A stretch of DNA of 64,000 bases from a virus, in IMG/VR virus record IMGVR_UViG_3300032294_002055, positions 1 to 64,000 of that record; one strand, written 5' to 3'. The notes under the pieces are model-generated. The model saw only the letters and a list, made by a program, of their open reading frames with translations, had not been told where the DNA came from and searched no databases. The translations under genes were made by a program, and so were the position numbers. Below are positions 4,791-51,616 of the stretch, in pieces. Position 1 is the stretch's first letter. Each line of letters starts with the position of its first letter.

Positions 4791-5981
4791 ATGGACACGA
4801 CAAAACCACTCCAGTTCGCCAGCGTACTCGACCGCATCAAGTCTTTCCAACAAAGTAAGCTTGCTGCTGATACTTCTTCTGTGAAAGATCCCGCAGATAA
4901 AGGTACTGTTGGAATCCCCCGCGATCCAGAAAATACCCCAGCCAAAGAAAACATGCCTGAAGATCAGGACAACATGGGTTCTAACGAAGGTACCAAGCTT
5001 GAAGATAGCCAGCTTCATCCTGTATCCACTGGCAAGAATGTTCCTTCTGCCGCCAATGGTAACGCTAAGGAAAATGTTTCTTCTTCCACCGATTCCCTTA
5101 GCAAGATCGCTAAGCGTGTTGCTTCAGTCACCAGCAAGCTTAAGAGCGCTGGTATGCTGAACGCAAAAGATGAAGACGAGTGCAAAGCCGAAAAGCCTAA
5201 GATGGACAAAATCGAAGGTGAGCCTGAATCAGCTGAAAACACTGATAAGGGTAATAAGACTAAGCCTCCTTTTGGTAATGTTAAAGGTAAGGATGAAAAG
5301 ACCGAAAAAGAAGCTGCTAATGATTCAGTTGCTTCCGACCTTTCGCCTGAAGCTCTTATGAAGCTTGCTTCTACCATCATTGCTACAGAAGGCGGTCTCG
5401 CCGCTGTCGAGCCTGTGCTTATGAAGGCCGCTGGCGTTGAAGCAGCTAGACAAATTATGGCGCAGGCCGTAGACTCTTATAGTAACTTCGTTCAGCAGCA
5501 GGCTGCTTATGAAGAATATGCAAAACAAGCTTCTGCTGCCCAGCACCAGGAAAACGCTGCTTTTGAAGAGTTCTTCAAATCTGCTTCCGAACAAGACCAG
5601 CAGCAGATTGTGAAATTCGCTGCAGTGCATGGTGAAGCTCTTGGTAATATCGAAAACGATATGCTTAAGCAGGCTTATATGCAAGGAGCGCAAGATGCCG
5701 CTGCTATGGAAGACGCTGGTGGTGCGCTTCCCGGAGCAGAAGGTCCTGCCTCTATCGAGCAGATCGCTCAGTTACTTGAAGCTATGGTTGCTTCTGGCGA
5801 AATCGATGAAGAAACCGCTATGGGTATTCTTCAGGAACTTGCATCTGCTGACGCTGGCGCTGCTGGCGAAGCCGAGGCTGGTGAAGCTGCCGCCGAAGGT
5901 GCTGAAGACGAAATGGCTAGCGAAGAGTTCAAACAAGCTTCCGAACTTTGCGCTGAATTAATTTCTAAAGTCCAGAAGTAA
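4791..5981 (+). CDS. Scaffold-like / prohead core protein
   Basis: A 396-aa, strongly acidic and Ala/Glu-rich protein. Residues 1-180 are polar and disorder-like with many Lys/Glu/Asp/Pro; residues about 185-330 form long Ala/Gln-rich helices; the C-terminus (about 335-396) alternates Ala, Gly and Glu. This composition and the location between the protease and the capsid protein fit a scaffold that is digested by the protease. Many K-x-A-[SA] sites (KLAA, KEAA, KSAS, KQAS, KAAG) are spread along the chain, consistent with multiple cleavage sites. The function is inferred from composition and synteny, not from a recognised family. Confidence 0.6.
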   Translation: MDTTKPLQFASVLDRIKSFQQSKLAADTSSVKDPADKGTVGIPRDPENTPAKENMPEDQDNMGSNEGTKLEDSQLHPVSTGKNVPSAANGNAKENVSSSTDSLSKIAKRVASVTSKLKSAGMLNAKDEDECKAEKPKMDKIEGEPESAENTDKGNKTKPPFGNVKGKDEKTEKEAANDSVASDLSPEALMKLASTIIATEGGLAAVEPVLMKAAGVEAARQIMAQAVDSYSNFVQQQAAYEEYAKQASAAQHQENAAFEEFFKSASEQDQQQIVKFAAVHGEALGNIENDMLKQAYMQGAQDAAAMEDAGGALPGAEGPASIEQIAQLLEAMVASGEIDEETAMGILQELASADAGAAGEAEAGEAAAEGAEDEMASEEFKQASELCAELISKVQK

Positions 5982-9791: not shown

Positions 9792-10612
9792 TGAGCAATC
9801 CATTTTTAAATGTTCATATTCAGCCTTCGTATGCGCGGGATCAGGCTGTAATTAACTGGACTGTCCGTCCTGGATATGCCGGTGCGGAATACTATGTATT
9901 CAAATCATACAATAAAGGCGTAGCGCCTTGGAAGTTGGTAAATGAGGAGCCTGTTTATAATAATATGCTCCAAGATCAAAATCTTTTTGTAGATGGCGAT
10001 CCTTACTACAGAGTGTTGATGGTTTGGAATGGGCAGGAGTTTGATAGTCCCATTGTAGGCACATTTGATAAATTATCTAAAGCTCAATATGGCGGTGTAA
10101 GCCGCATGATGCAGCTTGAATATCTGCGTATGAGTACTGGTAACGGTATTCAGGTTTTGCATTATATCCCATTAATTGATGGTGAATATGTGGAAGGCGT
10201 AGATCCTGATACACAGCAGATGTATAGCGTCCCATGTAAAGATGATTATACAGACAATTTAGGAGAGATGTTCAAAGGTGGTTTCGCTAGCCCGGTTTAT
10301 ACATGGATTGAAATATCCAGGTTTGGAGATGACGTAAGAACAGAAAGTGAAGATGGTACCGGTGTTAATAACAAACTAATTCATCAAGGTAGGCTTCTAG
10401 CATTTCCAAGACCTAAACCAAATCATTTAATTATACATCCTCCTACAGACAATAGATATGTAGTGACAGAAAAAGTGCAGGGTAATTTTTTTAGAGGCGT
10501 ATTCCCTATATCTTATGATGTAGGCCTTCAATTACTGAGAAAATCTGATCCAAGATATAAGGTTGCTGTACCTTCTCCTCTTCCAACTCCTTTATGGGCT
10601 AAATATGAATAA
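9791..10612 (+). CDS. Neck/tail-completion region structural protein
   Basis: A 273-aa beta-rich protein starting at a TAATG overlap with the previous gene. The N-terminus (1-90) looks like a fibronectin-like beta sandwich: alternating aromatic and hydrophobic strands such as YYVFKSYNKG and YYRVLMVWNG. The C-terminal half is mixed. It lies between the adaptor candidate and the sheath, where neck and tail-terminator proteins are found. No family is recognised, so the neck assignment is from position. Confidence 0.55.
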   Translation: MSNPFLNVHIQPSYARDQAVINWTVRPGYAGAEYYVFKSYNKGVAPWKLVNEEPVYNNMLQDQNLFVDGDPYYRVLMVWNGQEFDSPIVGTFDKLSKAQYGGVSRMMQLEYLRMSTGNGIQVLHYIPLIDGEYVEGVDPDTQQMYSVPCKDDYTDNLGEMFKGGFASPVYTWIEISRFGDDVRTESEDGTGVNNKLIHQGRLLAFPRPKPNHLIIHPPTDNRYVVTEKVQGNFFRGVFPISYDVGLQLLRKSDPRYKVAVPSPLPTPLWAKYE

Positions 10613-45335: not shown

Positions 45336-46934
45336 ATGATTGAGTACCAAAAGTTAATGAGTCATGTGTTAGAGAATGGCGTGTACAAAATGGATAGAAC
45401 TGGCACAGGTGCTATCTCTGTATTCGGTACACAGAGTCGTTACAATTTAAATGAGGGCTTCCCTCTAGTGACGACAAAGAAGATGTTTACCAGAGGCGTA
45501 ATTGGCGAGCTTCTATGGTTCATAGAAGGTAATACCAATGCGCGTTACCTGGAAGAAAAATACGGAATTAAATTCTGGAAAGATTGGGCTGACCCTGAAA
45601 CTGGGGAGCTTGGTCCTTTGTATGGTAAGCAGCTACGGAATATTGAGTATTCTTATTGGATAGAGCCGAGACTACGCGTTCAGCCTCCAGAAGAATTAGT
45701 TTTAACGCCTATCTTTGATAAGAATGTTGTTGTGGATTATTTGTCTGGTGAGTCGGTATATTTGGGTAAAACAATACAAACCAAAGAATGCGGACTTTGC
45801 ACAGTTATTAAAGAAATTTCAATACCTGGAGAGAGAAGCCAATTCGATGTAAAATTCCACGATACAGGTTACGTACGTCGTGTAGATTATGCAACTGTAC
45901 AAACTGACGCAATTAAGGACCCATACTGTCAGTCTGTATATGGCGTAGGTTACTACGGCGAGTTCGCTGAAGACGAACACACATCTATGTTAAAAAATGT
46001 GTGGCGTGAAATGCTGCGGCGCTGCTACAACTCTAAAAGTGATTCTTATAAAAGTTACGGAGCTAAAGGTATTCACGTAACCCCGGCGTGGCTTTGCTTC
46101 GCTACTTTCAACAAAGACGCTAGAACTTTAACGAACTGGAACTGTCGTTTAGAATATGGTGCCGAATATGAGTTGGATAAAGATGTGCGCTATGCCGCCA
46201 ATTACTACAGTAAAGAAACTTGTATGTGGTCTTCCAAGCTGGAGCAAAGCTACAACACATCGACTAATAGACCTTTCAAATGTGTAAATCCTGCAGGTGA
46301 AGAATTTTTCTTTCGTTCAGTAGGGGAAGCAAACAGAAAGTTTAATTTAAATGTTTCTGCAGTGCATCGTTGCCTAAATGGAGAACTTCAAACGCATCAC
46401 GATTGGAGTAATTTTGAGTATGTATGTGAGGAGGGTAAAGTTTGTAGGACGCGAGTGATTGATCAGCTAAAAGAGGTTATAGCTGAAATTAAGCATAACC
46501 CTAATAGTAGAAGATTAGTCATTAGTTTATATAATCCTCACGAGTTGGATAAAATGAACTTACCTCCTTGTCATGGTAGCGTAATTCAATTTTTTGTAGA
46601 TGACGAAAAAAGATTGAGCTTACATATGTATCAGCGAAGTGGAGATGTATTTATAGGTGTCCCTGTAAACATTGCCAGCTACTCATTGCTGTTAATGATG
46701 GTTGCTCAGGTTACTGGTTATACACCGCATGAATTTATTCATACTATCGGTGACGCTCATTTATATTCCAATCATATTGAGCAAGCCAAACTCCAGCTTT
46801 CCCGAGAACCTCTGGAAAGTCCTATTATGAAGATCAATCCCAATATTAAAAATATTGATGGCTTCAAATATACGGATTTTGAATTGGTGAATTACGAATG
46901 TTATCCTGCTATCAAAGCAGAGATTGCCGTTTAA
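45336..46934 (+). CDS. thyA: Thymidylate synthase with an in-frame endonuclease-like insertion
   Basis: A 532-aa frame in which residues 1-103 and about 372-532 make a normal ThyA (dUMP to dTMP using methylene-tetrahydrofolate) of about 265 residues. Seen: DRTGTG near residue 20, ELGPLYGKQ (91-99), SRRLVIS (391-397), the active-site LPPCH (C412), QRSGDVF, LYSNH. Between YGKQLRN and RVIDQL about 267 residues are inserted, open and in frame. The insert has the layout of phage mobile HNH-like proteins: a beta module with [24 protein letters not shown] (195-210), [10 protein letters not shown] (223-232) with [15 protein letters not shown] then YSKETC, and a NUMOD-like C-terminus ([20 protein letters not shown]). 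No intein signature (no N-terminal Cys, no HN at the end). Confidence 0.85.
45648..46449 (+). mobile_element. Putative homing-endonuclease-like insert in thyA
   Basis: About 800 bases inserted between the codons for YGKQLRN and RVIDQL of thymidylate synthase, keeping the frame. The encoded region resembles free-standing phage HNH/NUMOD mobile genes. The exact borders are uncertain to within some 10 codons. No flanking ribozyme core is visible, and about 35 residues precede the recognised endonuclease part. Confidence 0.6.
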
Positions 46935-46953
46935 TTAACCTACTATATTTATC

Positions 46954-46983
46954 AAAGGGGTGCTCGTAACTGGGCACCCTTTT
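46954..46983 (+). terminator. Rho-independent terminator after thyA
   Basis: A stem formed by 46954-46963 and 46974-46983 (core GGGTGC/GCACCC) with a 10-base loop and a TTTT tail that also pairs with AAA on the 5' side. Confidence 0.75.
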
Positions 46984-47003
46984 GTGTTATATAAATTTGT
47001 ACG
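46984..47003 (+). promoter_or_regulatory. Conserved promoter, copy 1 (GTGTTATATAAATTTGTACG)
   Basis: The sequence at 46982-47003 is identical over 22 bases to 50170-50191. TATAAAT at 46990 resembles the T4 late -10, and no -35 is found at the usual distance. It lies between the thyA terminator and the ATG at 47035. Since both flanks of the -10 are conserved, it is likely a phage-specific promoter. Confidence 0.6.
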
Positions 47004-47034: not shown

Positions 47035-49032
47035 ATGTTCTTACACATCAAACAACAAGTACAGAAGCGCTTTAATGAGCTTCTGCAAAATGGTCCCGTA
47101 TTTTGCGTGGACGTCGATAAGGAAACGATCTGGGAAATGTACCTCGCTGCATTCCCGGAACAATACAGACAGGAGAATACCTGTAACTGCTGTAAATCTT
47201 TTATCCGTCAGTTCTCAGGACTGGTAGGTATTAAAGATAACAAGGTCCTTACTCTGTGGGACTTTGAATGCACCGATCCAGAGTATACTAATTCGGTTAA
47301 GGCAATGAGGGATTATATTCTCTCCTGCAAGATCGATTCAGTTTATGTTAATTCGTTCGCCAAGCTGGGAACGGATAAAACACCGGATACAAAACGCAGT
47401 CTGGTTTGGGAGCATTATTTTATTAATCTTCCCAATAACATGGTGATGCGTGAAGAAAGAATCGGACCGCATCAAGGTAATGCTAGGGATAATAAAAATG
47501 TCCTGAAGCGTTCTCTGGATGAGCTCACTGATGAAGCAGTGAATACTGTCCTTGAGCTGATTGATCAGAATTCTCTTTACCGGGGTAACGAACATAAAAC
47601 TACACTGACTGAATTCCTTAAACTTAAGGAGCAGTACAAGAAGGTTCCTAATGCTCTTCGAGATAACTTCTGCTGGGTGCAGTCTACCAAGACTCATGCT
47701 GCAGTCTGCCGTATTCGTAATACGTCTATCGGTACGCTGCTGGTAGATCTGTCTGAAGGTCGCGACCTTGATAGCGCTGTCTCTGCGTTTGAACGCGTGG
47801 TGGCTCCCGCTAACTACAAGCGCCCTACCGCGCTGGTTACACCCAGGATGATTGAACAGGCGCAGGAACGTCTGACTGAGCTGAATATGCTTGGTTCACT
47901 TGAACGTCGTATTCTGGACAGCCGCGATCTCAATGTTAATAATACATTGTTCGTGCATCGTCCATCTGGTGGCGGTGTTTCCGATATCTTCGCAGACCTG
48001 AAGAAAGACACCATTGTCAATCCTAAGAGTCTGAATAAAGTTGAGGAGATCAGCATTCAGGACTTTGTGGATAAAGTTCTGCCTACTTCCAAATCTATTA
48101 AAGTTCTTGTGGAGAATATTCACATGCCGAACTTTGTTACTTTGGTCGGCGCTAAGAACCCGGATGATCCTACCATGTTCAAGTGGGGAAATAATTATTC
48201 CTGGGCATATACAGGGGATGTGACTGACTCGATCAAAGAGCGTGTAAAAGCTGCCGGTGGTAATATCACTGGCGTTCTGCGTATCAGTTTGTCATGGCAT
48301 AACCATGATGATCTGGATCTGCATGTTCATGAGCCTAAGGGTTATCACATATACTTTGCTAACAAAATGTCACTGTCTCCATCAGGCGGTATGCTGGATG
48401 TAGATATGAATGCAGGTGGCGGTACAACTCGCGAACCAGTAGAAAATATCTTTTGGTCCGGAGAACCAAAGATGGAAGGTAAGTATTCTGTTGTTGTGAA
48501 TAATTACTGCCGCCGTGATAATAAAGATGGGGGCTTTGAGGTTGAGATTGAGTACAACGGTGAAATTGAAACTTTCACTTCTAGTACCAATGCAGCCACA
48601 GATAAAAATTTTAACATTGCTGAATTTAATTACACCAAGAAAGATGGTGTTCAGTTTATTAATTCTAGCGGTAAATCTAATATCGCTAAATATAATTCCA
48701 GAGAGAAGTGGGGTGTAAAGACCGGGCAGTTTGTTCCTGTTCGTGCTATCACTCTTTCTCCTAACTTCTGGAATGATACATCAGGAAACAAACATTATAT
48801 GTTCCTGCTGGAAGGTTGTAAATCGGATGAGAAAACTCGTCCGTTTTTCAATGAGTTCCTTAAGCCTGAGCTTAGTGCAGATCGCAAGGTCTTCGAAATC
48901 CTGGGCAGTAAGGTAAATGTAGACAAGGCGGAAGATGAGCTGTCTGGTATCGGTTTCTCCGACACCGTACGGAATCATGTTTTCGTTGAAGTCGAAGGCA
49001 CATTCAAGCGTGTCGTCAAAGTTAAGTTCTAA
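47035..49032 (+). CDS. YfaP/DUF2135-type domain protein
   Basis: A 665-aa protein. The N-terminus has W-E-M-Y-L-A-A-F-P and a cysteine cluster C50-N-C52-C53 with FIRQFSGLVGI, a pattern I associate with a family of large-phage proteins. The C-terminal third (about 405-520) has RISLSWHNHDDLDLHVHEPKG, typical of YfaP/DUF2135, a beta domain with D-x-D-L-H. Function unknown in phages. It is transcribed alone from the conserved promoter and followed by a highly codon-optimised small gene. No membrane segment or signal peptide. Confidence 0.7.
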   Translation: MFLHIKQQVQKRFNELLQNGPVFCVDVDKETIWEMYLAAFPEQYRQENTCNCCKSFIRQFSGLVGIKDNKVLTLWDFECTDPEYTNSVKAMRDYILSCKIDSVYVNSFAKLGTDKTPDTKRSLVWEHYFINLPNNMVMREERIGPHQGNARDNKNVLKRSLDELTDEAVNTVLELIDQNSLYRGNEHKTTLTEFLKLKEQYKKVPNALRDNFCWVQSTKTHAAVCRIRNTSIGTLLVDLSEGRDLDSAVSAFERVVAPANYKRPTALVTPRMIEQAQERLTELNMLGSLERRILDSRDLNVNNTLFVHRPSGGGVSDIFADLKKDTIVNPKSLNKVEEISIQDFVDKVLPTSKSIKVLVENIHMPNFVTLVGAKNPDDPTMFKWGNNYSWAYTGDVTDSIKERVKAAGGNITGVLRISLSWHNHDDLDLHVHEPKGYHIYFANKMSLSPSGGMLDVDMNAGGGTTREPVENIFWSGEPKMEGKYSVVVNNYCRRDNKDGGFEVEIEYNGEIETFTSSTNAATDKNFNIAEFNYTKKDGVQFINSSGKSNIAKYNSREKWGVKTGQFVPVRAITLSPNFWNDTSGNKHYMFLLEGCKSDEKTRPFFNEFLKPELSADRKVFEILGSKVNVDKAEDELSGIGFSDTVRNHVFVEVEGTFKRVVKVKF

Positions 49033-49778: not shown

Positions 49779-50148
49779 AATTTTAAACTATATCAAAGAA
49801 CAACTACAGCTTACCAAAAATCAGAAAACATATACTGATTGGGAAGAAGCTAGAAGAGAAGGAGCTGAAGGTGTTCTTGAAGATTTGCTAGAACAATTTT
49901 CAAAAGTTAATACCGAGGGCACTCAAACCAAAATCGAGTTACTGTACAACGGTGACTATCCCGGGCACCCATGTGTGCGTGTAAACGATAAATGGCTTGA
50001 TTCTAAAGAAGAAGTATCTCTATGTAAATTCTTTAATGTTAACGACCTTAAAGAGTTATATGATAAAGTAGGGCTGTCCAAAGATTGGGACGGTACAATT
50101 AGCGAAGAGCATAAACCTTTTGAAGGTACGCTCTCAATTCATAAATAA
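49771..50148 (+). CDS. 125-aa protein of unknown function
   Basis: A soluble, acidic protein with helical N-terminus and short beta segments (IELLYNGDYPGHPCVRVNDKW). It is the last gene before the non-coding RNA locus. No family recognised. Confidence 0.5.
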   Translation: MDKILNYIKEQLQLTKNQKTYTDWEEARREGAEGVLEDLLEQFSKVNTEGTQTKIELLYNGDYPGHPCVRVNDKWLDSKEEVSLCKFFNVNDLKELYDKVGLSKDWDGTISEEHKPFEGTLSIHK

Positions 50149-50171
50149 TATTTGCAATACTTAGTATTGTT

Positions 50172-50191
50172 GTGTTATATAAATTTGTACG
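50172..50191 (+). promoter_or_regulatory. Conserved promoter, copy 2, of the non-coding RNA locus
   Basis: Identical to the element at 46984-47003 over 22 bases. TATAAA is at 50178-50183. Transcription would begin at about 50190 and run through the RNA domains to the terminator at 50665. Confidence 0.6.
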
Positions 50192-50214
50192 GCAGTTAAT
50201 ACCTGTTGTGCAAT

Positions 50215-50358
50215 AAGCGTGTGGCGGAATGTAAAACGCAATTTCGTAAGTATAGTGGGAAACTGACCAGCCCAACGTAACTTAGGTAATCAGTGAACTG
50301 TCAGTCTAGCTGAGAACGAAGTTGGAGTCTATTGCAGGTTCAAATCCTGCCACGCTTA
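50215..50358 (+). ncRNA. tRNA-like RNA with an enlarged anticodon domain
   Basis: Acceptor helix AAGCGTG (50215-50221) pairs perfectly with CACGCTT (50351-50357), discriminator A50358. The T arm is perfect: GCAGG/CCTGC around TTCAAAT (50334-50350). A D arm GCG/CGC with loop GAATGTAAAA (50224-50239) is preceded by TG, as in tRNAs. A five-base-pair anticodon stem is possible (50241-50245 with 50324-50328) with a standard five-base variable region, but the enclosed loop is 78 rather than 7 bases. Inside it helices 50262-50267/50300-50305 or 50272-50276/50321-50325 with 50281-50285/50310-50314 could form (alternatives, partly exclusive). No encoded anticodon is evident. It may be an intron-bearing or altered tRNA, or a tRNA mimic. 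Confidence 0.6.
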
Positions 50359-50365
50359 AAATTAA

Positions 50366-50494
50366 ATTGCTCTTAAAGCGCCCACGGCGTACCGAATGGT
50401 ATTCTGTGACGGTTACAAGGCCGAATGCCTCGACTGGGTTTACAAAGTCGGTGCTGCTCTGCGCCTTTGCAGAGAACGTTGAGTAAGAGCAATA
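50366..50494 (+). ncRNA. Structured RNA domain: hairpin rosette closed by a 10-bp helix
   Basis: ATTGCTCTTA (50366-50375) pairs perfectly with TAAGAGCAAT (50485-50494). Within this helix lie consecutive hairpins: 50378-50390 (five bp), 50391-50400, 50405-50417 (five bp), 50418-50430 (AGGC/GCCT), 50431-50450 (CGACT/AGTCG) and 50457-50474 (CTCTGC/GCAGAG). The region has no credible coding frame. I know no family with this exact layout. Confidence 0.6.
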
Positions 50495-50547
50495 TTGGAA
50501 TGATATTAGTATAATGTTATTAGAGTAACTTCTTGGTAATAATATAA

Positions 50548-50647
50548 GTCAGCGAACAGGTTCTGCAAAACTTGTGGCGTCTGACCATCCCGATGAAACA
50601 ATACCCAGCACATCAACAAGTACGCAGGCATGCAGAAGTTGATTGTG
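50548..50647 (+). ncRNA. Third RNA domain: two large hairpins
   Basis: A hairpin at 50548-50585 has GTCAG/CTGAC at its base and ACAGGTT/AACTTGT (50556-50562 with 50569-50575) above. A second at 50609-50647 has CAC/GTG, a bulge and ATCAAC/GTTGAT (50612-50617 with 50638-50643), with a GCA/TGC tip. It precedes the terminator and probably belongs to the same transcript as the tRNA-like domain. Confidence 0.5.
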
Positions 50648-50664
50648 TCCTAAGTTGTAGGAGA

Positions 50665-50698
50665 GCGTCCAGGTAGAAATACCTGGGCGCTTTTCTTT
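50665..50698 (+). terminator. Strong terminator of the non-coding RNA locus
   Basis: An 11-bp stem (50665-50675 with 50680-50690) capped by a GAAA tetraloop and followed by TTTTCTTTT. It also lies just downstream of the minus-strand kinase-like gene. Confidence 0.95.
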
Positions 50699-50704
50699 TA
50701 TATA

Positions 50705-51340
50705 TTATGTAATATAAGGATCTACCAGATAAGGGCGTCCTTGCGGCGAAAACATAATATTTCCTGATCCTGCAATATCGCTTATATTAACAGGTCCTTT
50801 AGCAGTCTGCATAGTTGCAGTATTTGGTAACCCGCCTGCTCTAAAACTTTGGTATTTTTTAGCGGCAGGTATAGAAACTCTCTCCGGGTTCAGTGTAGAT
50901 TTTTGAAATCTCTGTACAAAGTCTAGCCACTGTTTTTTATTACTAGAAGGTAGTGATAAAATTTCTTTTAGAATATTACCTGTAGGAGGTATTGGATTCA
51001 ATCTTGGAATAGCATAACCTCTTCCACCTCTAATTACAGATAGAATATTCGGGAAGATATCCGAAGATGAAAATAGGTTTTCTATAGCCTTAATTCTTTT
51101 CTCATTAATAGGCGATGCCTTAGATGAAATTAATTTTAATGCTGAAGGACCTTGTCCTCCAGTAAAGCTTTCATAAACTCGCCCTTCTCCACCAGCGCCA
51201 AGCATCTTCGGTTTCCCGGATATGTCTTTTAATAATCTTGTTTTATTAACAGGAAGAGCAGCGATTAGTTTCTCTATACTCTGTGGCGACATTCCTTTAG
51301 CCAAAGCACGAACCCAAGCAGGTGATGCCTGTTTATTCAT
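50705..51340 (-). CDS. Protein-kinase-like fold protein, probably degenerate
   Basis: A 211-aa protein; I start at 51340 (MNKQASPAW), because the longer frame from 51433 would overlap the divergent gene. It has a glycine-rich loop GAGGEGRVYESF and the VAIK-like lysine ALKLIS, then a middle helical region, and ends with GNIMFSPQGRPYLVDPY, resembling the N-x-x-x and D-P/DFG strand of kinase-like folds. The usual HRD motif is not visible and the C-lobe is short, so it is either a pseudokinase or a minimal, non-canonical phosphotransferase. The N-terminus begins with K-Q-A-S, as in head proteins. Confidence 0.6.
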   Translation of the reverse strand: MNKQASPAWVRALAKGMSPQSIEKLIAALPVNKTRLLKDISGKPKMLGAGGEGRVYESFTGGQGPSALKLISSKASPINEKRIKAIENLFSSSDIFPNILSVIRGGRGYAIPRLNPIPPTGNILKEILSLPSSNKKQWLDFVQRFQKSTLNPERVSIPAAKKYQSFRAGGLPNTATMQTAKGPVNISDIAGSGNIMFSPQGRPYLVDPYIT

Positions 51341-51400
51341 ACCGCTAATTAAATTTATTTTATTTTTATTCACACAAATACAATAAACCATTAAAACAAC

Positions 51401-51616
51401 ATGACAATTGTAAAAGCACGCATTACAGAACAACCTAAATCGATGTTTGATCCCATGCCCGAAGTATGGGTTACATATGAAGATGGAGAAGAAGAAAAGC
51501 TCTTCTCTTATTATCCAGATGAGATTTCATTTGATGCCTCTGAATTTGTAGGCTTAACAAGAGAACAAGCAATGAGTCTGTATACTAAAAAAGATGTAGC
51601 GTATCTGAGGTCCTAA
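51401..51616 (+). CDS. 71-aa small phage protein
   Basis: A short beta-like protein (VWVTYEDGEEEKLFSYYPDE) without known motif, divergent from the kinase-like gene with a 60-base AT-rich gap that should hold the promoters of both. The next gene follows after one base. Confidence 0.5.
   Translation: MTIVKARITEQPKSMFDPMPEVWVTYEDGEEEKLFSYYPDEISFDASEFVGLTREQAMSLYTKKDVAYLRS

Follow-up and report, generated by a model that had tools for sequence, protein, structure and literature searches.

What does a phage encode in some 500 bases that hold no credible gene and yet fold into an elaborate structure? The stretch in question lies at positions 50154-50698 of the window, by which we mean the whole DNA analysed, 64,000 nt long (positions 1-64,000 of a 71,877-base, 71.9 kb, IMG/VR virus record). 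A sequence-only reading had proposed here a structured non-coding RNA with its own promoter and terminator, perhaps of a new class, and comparison with related phages supports that proposal. The window also encodes a large terminase, most like those of Salmonella phage Arash and of Vibrio phages (about 24% identity), tail genes, SbcC/SbcD-like proteins, helicases and an HNH-interrupted thymidylate synthase. In the latter (45336-46934), an HNH-endonuclease-type insertion, at about residues 139-355, is in frame within a single 532-aa reading frame. The phage group appears to be uncultivated, since the SbcC-like protein of the window found no match among 50,697 phage records.

That no credible gene lies between 50149 and 50704 was borne out: the open reading frames there are a 58-aa minus-strand frame starting at TTG, a 54-aa frame, also from TTG, at 50322-50486, and a 41-aa minus-strand frame. 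In L007, a close relative, a 2-nt indel within the loop of hairpin P5 (see below) shifts the plus-strand 54-aa frame, and a coding gene at this place was rejected because the reading frame is not kept in that relative. The neighbouring gene (50705-51433, minus strand) is convergent with the RNA; its product found no match in Pfam or PHROGs, and by eye suggests a protein-kinase-like fold (GAGGEGRVYES, GNIMF, YLVDP).

Read from its sequence, the locus 50154-50698 is a stand-alone phage non-coding RNA gene, predicted to comprise a promoter, a 5' hairpin, a tRNA-like domain, a three-domain core and an intrinsic terminator. Its parts are the following.

50154-50159, plus strand: GCAATA, the upstream box of the promoter, 18 bases ahead of the -10-like box
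50170-50191, plus strand: TTGTGTTATATAAATTTGTACG, phage-specific promoter core, with an exact second copy at 46982-47003
50189-50209, plus strand: 5'-terminal transcript hairpin, predicted by folding; hairpins of varying sequence follow many other promoter copies
50215-50358, plus strand: tRNA-like domain in a variable 5' slot, found by ARAGORN with introns allowed; acceptor 50215-50221/50351-50357, T arm 50334-50350, D stem 50224-50226/50237-50239, anticodon-type stem 50242-50246/50317-50321 with about 63 nt extra
50366-50493, plus strand: core domain I, a 10-bp helix P1 and a 4-bp helix P2 around hairpins P3, P4, P5 and P6 (five-way junction), from conservation and covariation
50494-50594, plus strand: core domain II, a closing helix and two hairpins, one with loop CTGCAA (50563-50568), from minimum free energy (MFE) folds
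50595-50660, plus strand: core domain III, a GAAACAAY...GTTGTAG helix and an inner stem, with the same MFE fold in five members
50659-50698, plus strand: intrinsic terminator, a 17-bp stem with GAAA loop and T-rich tail, from a terminator scan; counterparts in relatives

The locus (50149-50704) folded better than 100 of 100 dinucleotide shuffles (z -4.4). For the core alone, without terminator and tRNA-like part, z was -2.7, and two divergent relatives gave -2.6 and -2.9.

Six syntenic phage contigs were gathered by a scan with the neighbouring SbcD-like protein, and the core was found at the same place in five of them. In four (L007, L003, L005 and L008) blastn of the locus showed a clearly conserved 3' part; in L004 the core is compact and divergent (covariance model E 1.3e-6 over its record, 3.7e-6 in a second run). 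The sixth contig, L006, has kept the terminator and is missing the RNA. Six members are therefore known with the window, two of which (the window and L007) are close. Pattern scans agreed: two recovered the four clear members, and L004 came up in a third, along with a chance match, L092. Four pattern matches in cellular genomes proved unrelated, lying in apparently coding sequence, with no core and no model score. The covariance model R1, run over 17 viral contigs, found the six members only, the RNA being absent from more distant SbcD relatives, and distant blastn against the INPHARED phages and PLSDB plasmids found no homologue.

The conserved core spans 50366-50660, about 290 nt in three domains. 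A 10-bp helix closing six hairpins had been described there. The helix stands (50366-50375/50484-50493); inside it are a 4-bp helix and four hairpins instead of six. Covariation on homologues, the check suggested for the locus at the outset, was positive for this domain I. On a MAFFT alignment of five members (without L004), 96.2% of the cells were paired, and 10 pairs showed two-sided changes. On a model-guided alignment including L004, the values were 96.4% paired, with two-sided changes in 15 of 43 pairs and in 24 cells. None of 500 shuffles reached the real values on any measure, and slid controls were 30-46% paired. P1, P4 and P6 are nearly invariant and say little alone; the proof is carried by P3 and P5, and differences among members in the length of P3 and in the P5 loop break any reading frame.

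For domains II and III, five members folded singly gave the same closing helix, the same CTGCAA hairpin and the same domain III fold, and compensatory changes were seen with the helices registered by hand. The inner stem of domain III was weakly supported on the unguided MAFFT alignment, with compensations appearing upon hand registration, and the MAFFT-only count for this domain was not used as support. From these comparisons, the core appears to be the rigid, three-domain 3' part of the family.

The assignment of its own promoter to the locus found comparative support as well. The 22-bp TTGTGTTATATAAATTTGTACG is repeated exactly upstream of another gene of the window, and with up to 3 mismatches it occurs 2 to 6 times in each of seven related contigs, in one orientation per contig; a reversed control pattern had no copies in these seven contigs. 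Across 25 distinct promoter instances of the clade, chosen on the downstream 18-mer only, an upstream G (-18) and A (-15), which were not selection criteria, are invariant and at fixed spacing. We conclude from these sequences that this is probably a bipartite phage promoter serving a set of transcription units; a small hairpin opens many of these units. At the other end, the GAAA-capped terminator that had been proposed was recovered by the terminator scan (stem-loop at 50659-50696), and a counterpart is present in 5 of 5 relatives with the RNA, as well as in L006. Comparison thus shows a transcription unit predicted to run from the phage-specific bipartite promoter to an intrinsic terminator of its own.

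Other genes stand behind the same promoter. In the window it precedes a 665-aa protein (47035-49032) of PHROG 1735 (E 4e-243), a family of unknown function present in 497 phage records with many hosts. In L020, L022, L030 and L037 it lies before a short gene with a structured 3' end and a GC-rich terminator, after which come an HNH-like gene, placed on the opposite strand, and tRNAs; in L020, L030 and L037 this structured 3' end contains ...GGTGGCACATGTGTTGTTGTT....

Does the RNA belong to a known family? Rfam covariance models, including those of tRNA, tmRNA, GOLLD and ROOL, gave no family at gathering threshold over the whole window. With permissive settings over 50100-50760 (661 bases, E up to 10), the matches were all weak, to terminator-like ctRNAs and to the T arm; the ctRNA and drz-agam matches, terminator-like or low-scoring, were rejected as family assignments. 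The possibility of a new RNA class had been raised from the sequence, and an RNA that is conserved in relatives, covarying and unmatched in Rfam is best read as a new phage RNA family. That the locus belongs to a real structured RNA family we regard as almost certain; sequence comparison shows the family together with its predicted structure. As far as the collections searched show, the family appears to be previously undescribed, small and confined to one phage group, and the window RNA would be its type example.

The tRNA-like domain, which had been placed within the RNA, is indeed present; it turned out, however, to fill a variable 5' slot and not to be part of the conserved RNA. The slot holds the tRNA-like element in the window, T-loop minihelices in L007 and L005, a hairpin with loop TGGAAAT in L003, two small ORFs in L008 and nothing in L004. 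In L007 and L005 it is a structured domain that ends in the minihelix (T-loops TTCAATC and TTCTAAC), and between these two we counted eight compensatory changes that are two-sided, one of them in a pseudoknot pair; no pair was broken. A tRNA-type T-loop is therefore found in the slot of three of the six members; L003 has a T-loop-like 7-mer only, and L004 and L008 have none.

This variety of contents lends itself to another reading, in which the core is a 3'-UTR or transcript-end element that stabilises or regulates the promoter's transcript, and the slot is where genes go. It is the main rival, and one we consider decidedly unlikely. The two ORFs of L008 (67 and about 54 aa) do stand between the promoter and the core, the second running right up to P1, and elsewhere in the clade the same promoter drives short coding genes that end in structured terminator regions. 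However, no convincing ORF lies between promoter and terminator in the window, L003, L005, L007 or L004, and L006 has the terminator without any core. Moreover, a 290-nt core of three domains, with many invariant unpaired positions, goes far beyond the needs of a stabiliser.

Those invariant positions could instead mean that the RNA acts by base pairing, as a regulatory antisense or sponge RNA, through the loops CTGCAA and ACAA and the P5-loop GG. In five members the stems change while several loop stretches stay invariant, CTGCAA of domain II among them; this loop is the complement of TTGCAG in P6 and has the palindrome TGCA within it. Yet chance complements are frequent for a 6-nt loop, and a multi-junction architecture is unusual among base-pairing small RNAs, which leaves this reading improbable.

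The perfect acceptor and T arm reported for the tRNA-like domain are both there, a 7-bp acceptor and a 5-bp T arm with loop TTCAAAT. ARAGORN by default found neither an ordinary tRNA nor a tmRNA in the window; with introns allowed, it drew a tRNA-Leu(gag) cloverleaf with a 63-nt insert at this domain. The Rfam tRNA score was 15 bits, below the gathering value of 29, and an ordinary tRNA was rejected on both results. Could this be a true tRNA-Leu with an intron, serving translation, and the remainder of the locus a separate RNA? The cloverleaf, with its insert in the anticodon loop, invites the question, as do a Leu-like D-arm start (GTGGCGGAAT) and the occurrence in relatives of a tRNA-Met with a group I intron (L051). 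But 63 nt are too short for a group I intron, no intron family matched, and the ends of the insert are arbitrary. The D loop is without the usual GG, no CCA is encoded, whereas the true tRNAs of the relatives mostly carry one, and unconstrained folding favours another interior (-38.6 versus -34.9). We hold an intron-containing tRNA-Leu to be very improbable.

A closer likeness is with elements of the tRNA arrays that related phages carry elsewhere in their genomes. Array elements of L053, L046, L051, L054 and L050 have acceptor and T-arm sequences similar to those of the window element, near-identical in L053 and L046; the D-arm start is shared with L053, and the middle is enlarged or deleted. 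Unlike the window element they are located in tRNA arrays, and homology of the interior with L053 and L046 was rejected, as alignments did not rise above interior-shuffled controls and the ends alone match. The array elements (L053 3163-3332; L046 5382-5490 and 7061-7185; L051 11114-11228; L054 about 2042-2128) measure about 85-170 nt; their acceptor and T arms are of tRNA type, their middles enlarged or odd, and two of them, from different phages, are 93% identical. The sequence that precedes the full tRNA-like element of L054 recurs in the tRNA array of G005, where it is followed by a minihelix, GGGCGCGGCAGG-TTCGATT-CCTGCCGCGCCC; in L050 an acceptor/T-arm minihelix takes the place of that fuller element. 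Since minihelix and full element occur behind the same upstream sequence, acceptor and T arm can be what is kept.

A resemblance to GOLLD and ROOL, giant phage RNAs that form cages, had been noted, with no match to either; it was confirmed on both counts. GOLLD has a conserved 3' and a less conserved 5' region, with a linker that sometimes holds phage tRNAs, and ROOL has a linker region of low conservation (PMC12286853). The new family shares the GOLLD-type arrangement of a conserved 3' and a variable 5' region, a likeness of layout only. Like GOLLD, it is phage-borne and multi-junction, and like ROOL it is a large, ornate phage non-coding RNA with a poorly conserved linker. It differs from ROOL in its five-way-junction core and in having no recognised shared motif. 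As to a location near tRNAs, known for these RNAs, no tRNA lies beside the locus, in the window or in the rest of the record, and the relatives have tRNA arrays at other places in their genomes. In the window and its relatives alike, the GOLLD and ROOL models found nothing at gathering threshold, and nothing at E up to 10 in 50100-50760, so that at the sensitivity used both appear to be excluded as families. That the RNA is a divergent GOLLD or ROOL missed by the Rfam models is hardly credible, in spite of its ornate, phage-borne make-up, its variable 5' linker with a tRNA-like element and a clade rich in tRNA arrays, given these searches, a core of about 290 nt against more than 800 in many GOLLD members, and a conservation within the family so high that distance by itself does not account for the lack of a match.

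With tmRNA, the window RNA has in common that a larger structured RNA bears tRNA-like ends (acceptor and T arm). It has neither a match to the Rfam tmRNA model nor a credible tag frame, and the tRNA-like part is missing in relatives. A loosened ARAGORN run gave one spurious, partial tmRNA ('Tag not identified'), and tmRNA was rejected.

As to function, we infer the following course of events. From the bipartite promoter an RNA consisting of 5' slot and core would be made, ending at its own terminator. The T-loop/acceptor module would be read by host tRNA enzymes (RNase P, 3' trimming), which would separate or protect the 5' end of the core, and the processed core might then accumulate during infection as a structural or protein-binding scaffold. 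RNase P recognises the stack of T-stem and acceptor, and the D-loop appears dispensable (PMC4919913). The T-loop domain would most likely mark the transcript for RNase P-type processing; by analogy, a role of the module in processing or protection stands a little short of an even chance. Such processing cannot be required for the core, since L004 and L008 are without a T-loop and L003 has the 7-mer alone. For the core itself, a GOLLD/ROOL-type role as an assembly scaffold is a tentative suggestion, also by analogy, and on the doubtful side. Taken whole, a new RNA family with conserved core, swappable slot, tRNA-enzyme processing and scaffold core is the best explanation we have, and we judge it evenly poised between right and wrong.

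A bolder version, which we think unlikely, would make it a new class of ornate phage RNA, of a fold unrelated to GOLLD and ROOL, self-assembling via its conserved loops and with exchangeable T-loop or tRNA-like linker cargo; if true, the GOLLD/ROOL design would have arisen independently. We know of no established purpose for GOLLD, ROOL and similar structured RNAs, large and costly as they are for a phage. A third RNA, smaller and unrelated, with a similar layout of conserved scaffold and variable linker bearing a T-loop would suggest that their function is shared. The 290-nt core is a tractable target for structure work, and the slot variants (tRNA-like element, minihelix, plain hairpin, ORFs, nothing) form a natural deletion series for the role of the T-loop domain.

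Two further RNA elements were noticed in the relatives. In L051, the group I intron (10128-10344, Rfam 59 bits) appears to interrupt the phage tRNA-Met within the array. In L050 (about 5650-5770, minus strand) and L054 (about 1965-2070), a conserved and apparently structured stretch, CTCRGCTAGGGGACAAGAGGCTCCATGCC...CCCTAGCTGGGATTCC, lies directly upstream of the minihelix or tRNA-like element and is possibly a second non-coding RNA.
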